Assembly (NCBI RefSeq): GCF_000152965.1
Contig: NZ_CH902583.1
Coordinates: forward strand, 3,663,694-3,727,693
Source of the DNA: Roseobacter sp. MED193
Lineage (GTDB): Bacteria; Pseudomonadota; Alphaproteobacteria; Rhodobacterales; Rhodobacteraceae
Reading direction: 5' to 3'
DNA: 64,000 nt
In this document: positions 2,980 to 28,013 of the stretch, piece after piece
Numbering within the stretch: the first letter of the stretch is position 1
How the letters are laid out: each line of letters begins with the position of its first letter
Made by a program: the position numbers and the translations under genes
The notes under the pieces: model-generated
The model's input: only the letters and a program-made list of their open reading frames with translations
Databases searched by the model: none
What the model was told of the DNA's origin: nothing

Positions 2980-4464
2980 TCAATGTGTGAAGCTTGCCAG
3001 TAGCAGATAGATGCCGCCAGATAGCAGGGCAGCAGCGGGTACTGTGATGACCCAGGCAGCTGCAATTGTCATAAAGTGGCTGCGCCGCACCAGCTTGCGA
3101 CGGCGGCGCTCTTCTGGGGCGATGCGCTTTTCTTCGGGGCGCTCGACCGCAAACTTTCGGGTGCGGCGCTCATGGTGCCATTCGCGGAAGAATCCAACCC
3201 CAAAGACCGCACCAACCGCGATATGGGTTGAGGAGACAGGCAGGCCAAGCCAGCTTGCGACAATCACCGTGATCGCAGCCGAGAGTGACACGCAATAGGC
3301 CCGCATCGGGTTCAGTTTGGTGATCTGGCTGCCCACCATCCGGATCAGTTTTGGACCAAAGAGGAAGAGGCCAAAGGAAATCCCAAAGGCGCCAATCACC
3401 ATGACCCAGGATGGGATGGCCACCTTGGAGGCAAAATCGCCAAATTCACTGGCATGCACGATGGCGGCAAGCGGACCAACTGCATTTGCCACATCATTGG
3501 CGCCATGGGCAAAGGAGAGCAAAGCGGCCGAAATCACCAGGGGGATACGGAACAGAACCTTCAGTGATTTATTGCGGTTTTCCATACCCTCAGACTGGCG
3601 CTTGATCAGCGGCGCAGTAATCACATAGGCGAGGGCACCCATCATTGCCCCGATCAAAAGGGCGGTTTGCAGGTCGATCTTGATGATGCGTTTGAGGCCT
3701 TTAAGCGCCAGATAGGCGGAAAAGGCACCGGCCATAATGCCCACCAGCACCGGCACCCAGCGCCGCGCGGCGGCAATTTTGTCGTCCTGGTAGATGATCT
3801 TTGCTTTGATCAGCGCCAGGAACAGGGCCGCGATCACCCCGCCAAGTACAGGGGAGATCACCCAGCTGGCAGCAATTTTGCTCATGGTGGCCCAGTTCAC
3901 GGCGGCAAAACCGGCAGCGGCAATGCCCGCCCCCATGACACCGCCAACCACCGAGTGGGTGGTCGAGACCGGTGCACCAATCCAGGTGGCCAGGTTAACC
4001 CAAAGCGCCGAGGAAATCAGCGCTGCCATCATGGCCCAGATAAACACTTCCGATGTTGCAACCACAGTTGGGTCAATGATGCCCTTAGAAATGGTCGAGA
4101 CCACATCTCCGCCCGCCAAGAGCGCGCCTGCGCTTTCAAAAACGGCTGCTATGACGATGGCACCGCCCATTGTCAGCGCGTTAGCCCCAACCGAAGGGCC
4201 CATGTTGTTGGCTACATCATTGGCGCCGATATTGATCGCCATGTAGGCGCCAAAGACCGCAGCCGCCACCACAACAAGATTGGCTTGGCTGCCGCCAAAG
4301 AACATCGCAGCCCCAAGGCCGGCCAGAACCATGAAGACCAGGGCGATGCCTGGCGCGATCATGGGGCGGGCAACATATTGGGTCGCGGTTTCTAGGTGCG
4401 AAAATCGATGCAGGTCTCGATCAAGCGTATCGTGGTGGTTGGCGTCGTTTGGGGGGGTGCTCAC
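2980..4464 (-). CDS. pit: Inorganic phosphate transporter, PiT family
   Basis: The 494-residue inner-membrane protein carries both halves of the duplicated PiT signature: GANDVANN at residues 80-87 and HGANDVANAVGP in the C-terminal half. About ten to twelve hydrophobic segments are interrupted by a charged cytoplasmic stretch near residues 275-305. The first 30 residues are hydrophilic, an N-terminal extension. PiT proteins are low-affinity symporters of (metal-)phosphate driven by the proton or sodium gradient. Three phased PhoB half-sites sit about 70-95 bases upstream of the start, which suggests control by phosphate supply. A Nudix gene lies upstream on the same strand, but the 92-base gap with its own operator argues for a separate promoter. 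Confidence 0.93.
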   Translation of the reverse strand: MSTPPNDANHHDTLDRDLHRFSHLETATQYVARPMIAPGIALVFMVLAGLGAAMFFGGSQANLVVVAAAVFGAYMAINIGANDVANNMGPSVGANALTMGGAIVIAAVFESAGALLAGGDVVSTISKGIIDPTVVATSEVFIWAMMAALISSALWVNLATWIGAPVSTTHSVVGGVMGAGIAAAGFAAVNWATMSKIAASWVISPVLGGVIAALFLALIKAKIIYQDDKIAAARRWVPVLVGIMAGAFSAYLALKGLKRIIKIDLQTALLIGAMMGALAYVITAPLIKRQSEGMENRNKSLKVLFRIPLVISAALLSFAHGANDVANAVGPLAAIVHASEFGDFASKVAIPSWVMVIGAFGISFGLFLFGPKLIRMVGSQITKLNPMRAYCVSLSAAITVIVASWLGLPVSSTHIAVGAVFGVGFFREWHHERRTRKFAVERPEEKRIAPEERRRRKLVRRSHFMTIAAAWVITVPAAALLSGGIYLLLASFTH

Positions 4465-4531
4465 GGTGGTCGTCCCTTTGGCAGGCAGTTTGAGCAGCCA
4501 CTAAGTGAGCGCGCCTCATGTGGCAAGCGTG

Positions 4532-4560
4532 CTGTCATAAAACTGTTACGTGATTGTCAC
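4532..4560. promoter_or_regulatory. Pho box: three PhoB half-sites in 11-bp phase
   Basis: Plus-strand half-sites are CTGTCAT (4532-4538), CTGTTAC (4543-4549) and TTGTCAC (4554-4560), each separated by four bases, giving an exact 11-bp period. The first is a perfect match to the known PhoB half-site CTGTCAT and the others differ at one or two positions. The array lies 68 bases upstream of pit, with its third repeat covering the stop codon of the Nudix gene. The repeats point away from pit, unlike typical activated promoters; repression is therefore possible. Confidence 0.75.
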
Positions 4561-5015
4561 AATTGACGCAGCAGATCCTGCAACTCAGGTTCACGCACCA
4601 TATTAGCCGCCTCTTGGGCTGGAAACCACTTTCGCTGTCGCTGATGGGCCTCTGGGTAGCTGTCTGACAGTTCGATGTTGTCGATTGTATAGACGAAGGT
4701 CTGAACCGGGACCGGCAGGCCAGTTTTCAGCTCTTTTTCGTAGCAGAAGGCGCCAATGGGATCGCCTTCCACACGGCCGTTTTGCACTCCGGCCTCTTCC
4801 CAGGCTTCCTGCAGAGCGGATTCACCGCCATCCTTGCCCTTGATCGGCCAGCCCTTGGGAATGATCCAGCGGCCGGTGCCGCGGCTGGTAATCATCAGGA
4901 CTTCCTTTTTTCCGGTGGTGGTTCGGTGGCACAGGGCTGCAACCTGGACGCGTTTGGGGCGAAACAGAATGGGCTTGATCATTTCTTCCCAAGCCTGGGC
5001 GATAATGTTGCTCAT
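4557..5015 (-). CDS. Nudix hydrolase
   Basis: The protein is 152 residues from ATG 5015. It contains a Nudix box spread over GGESALQEAWEEAGV, with the REUXEE-type acidic residues that bind Mg or Mn (the Arg of the consensus is Gln-Glu-Ala here). The preceding GRWIIPKGWPIKG strand is typical of the diadenosine and diphosphoinositol polyphosphate hydrolase branch. It probably cleaves a nucleoside-diphosphate-type linkage; the substrate is not determinable. An in-frame GTG at 5051 would add 12 residues. The ATG at 5015 is preferred because AAGG lies nine bases before it. Its position upstream of pit, sharing the Pho box, hints at a phosphate-related role. Confidence 0.85.
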   Translation of the reverse strand: MSNIIAQAWEEMIKPILFRPKRVQVAALCHRTTTGKKEVLMITSRGTGRWIIPKGWPIKGKDGGESALQEAWEEAGVQNGRVEGDPIGAFCYEKELKTGLPVPVQTFVYTIDNIELSDSYPEAHQRQRKWFPAQEAANMVREPELQDLLRQL

Positions 5016-5324
5016 TGCGAACTGCCTTAACTGTATTTTTTTGGCAGCCACACATCAGAACTTGTGCAATCCGTCGCTGCATTTTTCTTATTGGCCTTTA
5101 AAATAGGGGCTTGTGGATAAAGTACAACCCTTCTGTGGGCCTTCTGTTGGTCAAAAGTACACTCAAATTGCATCTTATGGGGCCCGGTCGCGCTGTAAGT
5201 AGAACGCATTTGATTGCTTTTTGCTGGGGTATCAGGGGATTGAGACGGGGTTTTGAAGCACTGTGTTGACACCGCCTGGGCGCGAGGGCTCAGTGATTAA
5301 ACTTGATTATGGAATGGGCAAAAG
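5016..5324. other. Intergenic gap without clear features
   Basis: This 309-base interval separates the divergent Nudix and SDR genes and must hold both promoters. A TTGACA occurs at 5266-5271, but no convincing -10 element stands 16-18 bases after it. An open frame of about 80 codons on the minus strand lacks any recognisable domain or ribosome site and is not called. The sequence is somewhat richer in A and T near the Nudix start. Confidence 0.5.
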
Positions 5325-27795: not shown

Positions 27796-28013
27796 CCCGT
27801 TTCCTTTATTGTTCTTGCTATTGCAATTCTCGGCGTGGCGTTCCTTATGACGGAACTGTGACGATTCGGATAGCCTGTATATGCATAGCTTTCATGCAAA
27901 TTTTGCATAGCTTTAGCGCTGCAGCTACGAGATATCGTTGTCTTGCCAGCCGGGACCACGACAGATATAGGGTCGCTTAATATATCATCAACCTTCCCAG
28001 ATGGATTTTTCAG

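Follow-up and report, generated by a model that had tools for sequence, protein, structure and literature searches.

The pit gene of Roseobacter sp. MED193, which encodes a low-affinity inorganic phosphate transporter, is preceded by an array of three half-sites that is a PHO box by its sequence and that points away from the gene, beside a complete predicted promoter. We predict that PhoB binds this array, and that phosphorylated PhoB at the inverted box probably represses pit, either by covering its promoter or by crowding it. The array lies in a window of 64,000 nucleotides (the whole stretch of DNA that was analysed), and it was compared with the pst promoters of roseobacters, with pit promoters of other genera of the family and with pit systems described in the literature.

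Direct reading of positions 4532-4560 gives CTGTCAT-N4-CTGTTAC-N4-TTGTCAC, with all three half-sites on the plus strand and 11 bp from one start to the next, exactly the phase that the earlier note on this DNA had described (Table 1). The same note had the array pointing opposite to pit and its third half-site overlapping the stop codon of the upstream Nudix gene, and both observations hold: pit is on the minus strand, and the minus-strand stop lies inside TTGTCAC. If a PHO box is taken to need two or more half-sites of 7 bp that fit CTGTCAY and keep an 11-bp phase, the array is one, with three half-sites.

Table 1. Features of the pit locus in the window (position 1 is the first letter of the window)
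Feature	Position	Strand	Basis or remark
pit, low-affinity inorganic phosphate transporter, 494 aa, GTG start 4462-4464	2980..4464	-	Pfam PHO4, 374 bits, E 7e-112
Likely ribosome-binding site of pit, AAAGGGACG	4471..4479	-	Predicted from the sequence
Predicted -10 of pit, TAGTGG, 17-bp spacer	4498..4503	-	Same TTG-N20-TA pattern in class A genera
Predicted -35 of pit, TTGCCA, 5 bp off the array edge	4521..4526	-	TTG-N20-TA pattern, its distance from the array constant across class A genera
Half-site 1, CTGTCAT	4532..4538	+	Predicted PhoB half-site nearest the pit promoter; part of the 38.5-bit match to the pst-trained matrix
Half-site 2, CTGTTAC	4543..4549	+	Predicted PhoB half-site; by eye the most variable of the three among genus mates
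Half-site 3, TTGTCAC	4554..4560	+	Predicted PhoB half-site; holds the Nudix stop codon (4557-4559, minus strand)
Nudix hydrolase gene, tandem, upstream of pit	4557..5051	-	Longest frame; in-frame ATG at 5013-5015; Pfam NUDIX, 28.7 bits

The likeness to known boxes was measured with a 29-position matrix built solely from 39 arrays of pst operons, with no pit sequence included. These arrays were taken from upstream of pstS in 29 other roseobacter genomes and ten genomes of the genus, the organism's own among them; every one of the regions (39/39) gave a three-half-site array, and their consensus is TTGTCATAAAACTGTTACATACCTGTCAC. The pit array scores 38.5 bits, within the range of the pst arrays themselves (28.4-48.5 bits), and 39.2 bits with a matrix made only from the 29 arrays outside the genus, while the second- and third-best matches in the 64 kb, on both strands, reach 11.7 and -1.7 bits. 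The computed probability is about 4e-13 per position, which corresponds to 5e-8 expected matches per 64 kb on both strands. A chance repeat is ruled out by these figures and by control segments poor in high scores, and a pst-grade score so far above the rest of the window strongly backs the earlier note's reading of the array as a PhoB site. The genome encodes PhoB (TIGR02154, 345.3 bits against a cut-off of 296.2) in a pst-phoU-phoB cluster, the promoter of which carries TTGTCATATGCCTGTTACATAGCCGTCAC. A different member of the OmpR family might use the repeats in place of PhoB, given that 11-bp direct repeats are common to regulators of this family and that at least 39 places in the genome match the PhoB family model, those under the cut-off being other regulators of the class; the pst-grade score from a matrix of pst arrays alone makes this a very improbable reading.

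Genome-wide, a strict pair pattern has seven matches, against none for a reversed control pattern; two of them are the pit array, one is pst and one precedes an UshA/CpdB-like gene. The strict pairs other than those of pit and pst (L312, L314, L315, L316) stand before this UshA/CpdB-like gene and before HNH-type, lipA-like and hisS/hisZ-like genes (all these names are our reading of the proteins), and by our own estimate about two strict pairs are expected in the genome by chance. The second-best match to the pst matrix in the window, at 27889-27917, lies about 100 bp upstream of a gene that we read as efp-like and holds the palindrome ATGCAAATTTTGCAT.

Because TTGCCA (4526-4521) and TAGTGG (4503-4498) are separated by a 17-bp spacer, we infer that transcription of pit starts near 4491, and the array would then span about -41 to -69. 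A site in this interval can also serve an activator, and the distance of about 41 bp between the array edge and the predicted start is common for activators. Position is thus one of the points that favour the main rival of repression, in which PhoB, bound directly upstream of the -35, would activate pit by way of the alpha C-terminal domain or of sigma region 4 despite the reversed polarity; the evidence that bears on the choice comes from other genera and from the pst promoters.

One genome per genus was searched; 121 of the 248 gave a match to pit, and 102 orthologous promoters were kept (left out were seven partial or weak matches and 12 genomes with a divergent copy only, and divergent or second copies set aside came to 17 in all). 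With a pair matrix of averaged half-sites, a pair of at least 10 bits was found upstream of pit in 39 of the 102 genera, inverted in 27 and forward in 12, compared with 1.7 per 102 expected from shuffles (both polarities) and about 3.4 from real segments farther upstream (10/303). At 15 bits or more, 22 genera retain a pair (16 inverted, six forward), with 0.22 expected from shuffles; one of the 303 real control segments reaches 15 bits and none reaches 17. The triple matrix exceeds 0 bits in 28 genera with inverted and 11 with forward arrays, and in two of 404 control scans. The forward boxes upstream of pit reach at least 17 bits in six genera, which speaks for activation, and in three of these six (L018, L202 and L249) a TTG lies 8-9 bp before the array, so that the box fills the promoter spacer. 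The records with names, taken as the best 80 of 413 loci, gave 79 distinct promoters after one duplicate was removed; 48 of them are inverted at 10 bits and one reads better forward. By genus, inverted arrays number 11/11 in Leisingera, 9/18 in Ruegeria, 4/8 in Shimia and 0/3 in Sulfitobacter. In one named locus (L039) a stop in frame after the start of the match makes the pit start unsure. Two records titled Nocardioides marinus and Flavobacteriia (L101, L107) carry roseobacter-like pit loci, and their titles look wrong or their assemblies contaminated. A plasmid search with the pit promoter region gave no match.

The inverted arrays occupy two positions relative to promoter-like elements. 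Every TTG-N19/20/21-TA around each array was listed, and arrays were sought 3-8 bp before the TTG (class A) or 8-22 bp after the TA (class B), ranges that were fixed after a first look at the same promoters, so that the test was not a blind one. Among the 27 inverted arrays, 12 fall in class A only, 11 in class B only, one in both and three in neither. Thus 13/27 end 4-7 bp upstream of a TTG (null mean 0.15, largest 2, in 300 runs with shuffled flanks) and 12/27 start 8-19 bp past a -10 TA (null mean 0.42, largest 4, likewise in 300 runs with shuffled flanks); among the 12 forward arrays one fits A, one fits B and ten fit neither. The array of the window is in the class A position, and class B was found in other clades. 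On a tree of Pit proteins, made by a quick method and having many weak branches (L028 was left out as too short), class A lies within one set of 33 genera that includes the genus of the window (support 84); class B is divided between two others (support 92 and 94). When A and B alone are compared, a single change on the tree accounts for them; against all other states A needs nine changes and B nine, which implies many gains and losses. At the class A place, a score of 5 bits or more is reached in the inverted orientation by 17 of these 33 genera and in the forward orientation by three, compared with 1.5% at shifted places. In class B, the array would lie over the first bases of the transcript, where a blocker would be expected and an activator of that promoter would not.

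Upstream of pit and on its strand, a looser motif match detects a Nudix motif in 58 of the 102 genera and a stricter one in 22, both counts being motif matches and not domain searches; the pairing is conserved. The Nudix stop and the array are in the same register in seven of the 12 class A genera in which the motif was found. The stops in class A are seven TGA, four TAA and one TAG, and elsewhere 21 TAA, 19 TGA and six TAG, numbers too small to tell a bias. The Nudix enzyme could act on a phosphate-related nucleotide.

The pst promoters of the same organisms provide the reference for activation. Their arrays are forward, a TTG -35 is present in 0/39, and a TA lies at exactly 21 bp in 38/39 (the remaining one has no TA in the tested range), a layout that fits the rule reported for E. 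coli, according to which PhoB substitutes for the -35 wherever it activates a promoter (PMC3616915). The organism's own pstSCAB-phoUB promoter (TTGTCAT-N4-CTGTTAC-N4-CCGTCAC) resembles the pit array in its three half-sites and 11-bp phase, but its array points towards the gene, with no TTG -35 and a TA 21 bp away. The pit array thus differs from PhoB-activated promoters in all three of their features: it does not face the gene, does not replace the -35 and does not keep the fixed -10 distance. In its own direction, a TA at 10 or 21 bp follows none of the 27 inverted pit arrays, that of the window included, and the array is therefore unlikely to drive an antisense transcript. A forward PHO box directing transcription towards the Nudix gene, whether the product were an antisense RNA that silences it or a transcript with another role, would account for an array that points towards Nudix and scores like the pst arrays; we consider it highly doubtful, since the activating spacing seen in the pst promoters is missing and class B arrays point into the pit promoter.

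Activation of pit itself is a more serious alternative, for which Streptomyces coelicolor offers a parallel: pitH2 is reported to be activated by PhoP at low phosphate (PMC7866108) and, like the pit of the window, has an upstream array of 11-nt PHO repeats; it differs in the sign of its regulation. Against activation of the roseobacter gene stand the layout of the pst promoters, the inverted arrays downstream of the -10 in other clades, the fall of pit1 of Sinorhizobium meliloti at low phosphate (PMC8829014) and the absence of Pit from a table that highlights Pho proteins induced by phosphate stress in Phaeobacter MED193. The last point weakly counts against activation and says nothing for repression. 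On balance we regard activation as unlikely. Repression, which the earlier note had offered as a possible meaning of the inverted array, gains by the same comparisons: polarity and layout are the opposite of those at PhoB-activated pst promoters in the same organisms, and the inverted arrays found elsewhere just past the -10 would fit repression better than activation.

Within the genus, the array is largely retained. The earlier note had named its loss from close relatives with a conserved promoter as evidence against it; the best inverted array exceeds 0 bits in 11 of the 12 genomes, the exception being L008 (38.5, 37.0, 18.9, 18.9, 4.7, 7.9, 25.4, -9.6, 10.0, 11.9, 9.0 and 5.5 bits, the organism's own included). 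The threshold of 0 bits is the 99.9th percentile of shuffled 200-bp regions and is slightly lenient for the genus scan, which spanned 390 bp. By eye, the outer half-sites are best kept and the middle one drifts. The columns of the array are not more conserved than their flanks among 11 genomes of the genus (column identity 0.82 and 0.82-0.83), and genus-level conservation alone therefore proves nothing. This equality, together with the 63 of 102 genera that have no pair at 10 bits upstream of pit and the many inert PhoB sites reported for E. coli (PMC10294691), would agree with a site that PhoB binds with no effect on pit, as at most intragenic sites in E. coli. Such an inert site is improbable in view of the spacing to the core promoter, which is far above the null, and of the number of genera with a 15-bit box, which far exceeds both shuffles and real control segments.

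Control of pit by PhoB has already been described for S. meliloti; a reversed box of fixed register in roseobacters was not found in the literature searched, which lacks most subscription papers. The orfA-pit operon of S. meliloti (SMc02862-SMc02861) is reported to be repressed in phosphate starvation (PMC3131613, PMC8829014), pit1 is among the genes most repressed in phosphate stress (PMC8829014), and mediation by PhoB has been proposed (PMC3131613, PMC8829014, PMC3616915). The precedent that the earlier note drew from Sinorhizobium stands as far as repression at low phosphate is concerned; the role of PhoB in it is, in these sources, a proposal. The box of orfA-pit is also inverted, which by analogy supports repression in the window: the inverted pair scores 19.6 bits, against -3.8 for the forward one, in S. 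meliloti Ak57, and 21.7 against 3.3 in Rhizobium leguminosarum WSM1325. The locus of the window shares with S. meliloti a PHO4-family pit (374 bits) under an inverted box. It differs in that S. meliloti has an orfA (DUF47) partner and two half-sites near the start codon, whereas the window has three half-sites upstream of the -35, a tandem Nudix gene and no orfA; neither an orfA (DUF47/PhoU_div) before pit nor a PF01865 match at E 1e-15 in the organism's genome was found. The evidence on where the S. meliloti box lies relative to the start site is mixed: a TACAAT precedes it in the sequence, but a start-site paper lists it beside boxes farther upstream (PMC3616915).

Other orfA loci are mixed in orientation. 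The orfA promoter of Niveispirillum has an inverted pair (13.2 bits), that of Azospirillum ramasamyi reads better forward (19.0 against 13.8 bits inverted), and that of A. argentinense, whose orfA has no annotated pit next to it, has no box; a set of 30 orfA loci from other alphaproteobacteria includes three inverted and three forward pairs of at least 10 bits (the Niveispirillum record and L289, one of the 30, are the same promoter, present in both sets). Polarity is therefore not uniform outside the S. meliloti, R. leguminosarum and roseobacter lineages. A 3.7 Mb S. meliloti record labelled as plasmid pSymB (L307, CP090106.1) has recF and moeB beside orfA-pit and looks like the chromosome, and in R. 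leguminosarum pR132501 (L308) orfA-pit and the ugpB and ugpA genes diverge; a second and weaker pair there (9.7 bits) points towards ugpB.

Inhibition by the Pho regulon has been stated for E. coli pitB (PMC6469041), which to that extent is similar to the pit considered here, but no PHO box was found there with the pst matrix, and ChIP-seq and expression data led to the judgement that it is an unlikely PhoB target (PMC10294691); we therefore rejected it as a precedent. In a mesocosm study, bulk prokaryotic transcripts of low-affinity transporters were reported to be higher at low phosphate; SAR86 and Pseudomonadales supplied most of its pit reads (PMC12981677). For Rhodobacterales the same study gives a pst/pit ratio that falls as phosphate rises (negative correlation, r2 0.89), a trend for which pst alone could account.

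The mechanism that we favour, repression by PhoB at the inverted box, would work as follows. At low phosphate, phosphorylated PhoB would bind the three-half-site box head-to-tail, with its activating face away from pit, and would cover about -41 to -69 of a sigma70-type promoter, abutting the -35. This is the zone used by the C-terminal domains of the polymerase alpha subunits; by the contact rules of PhoB and polymerase, the bound protein would deny it to them and crowd sigma region 4. Transcription of pit would fall, and read-through from Nudix may be blocked as well. In class B genera the block would be direct. With ample phosphate, PhoB would be off and pit would run from its own promoter. 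The low-affinity importer would thus be shut while pst is switched on by the same box in forward orientation.

A tentative generalization, for which we would claim somewhat less than even chances, is a sign code in alphaproteobacteria set by the polarity and register of the array: forward, with no -35 and 21 bp from the -10, it would mean activation; a reversed array would mean repression where it adjoins an intact promoter, either some 5 bp ahead of the -35 or just past the start site, and pit would have been placed under the reverse copy in more than one lineage. Our confidence in both repression and the sign code is tempered because pairs are commoner in real control segments than in shuffles and because the placement ranges were not blind.

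The comparison suggests that the low-affinity importer bears the same phosphate-starvation control sequence as the high-affinity one, reversed and beside a complete predicted promoter, so that one regulator would switch the one off and the other on. If this is true, a single regulator acting on a single sequence has opposite effects, depending on the sequence's orientation and place, and roseobacters exchange Pit for Pst when phosphate is low, which S. meliloti reportedly does too. The sign of Pho regulation could then be read from sequence by a simple rule, and the finding would bear on many marine roseobacters.
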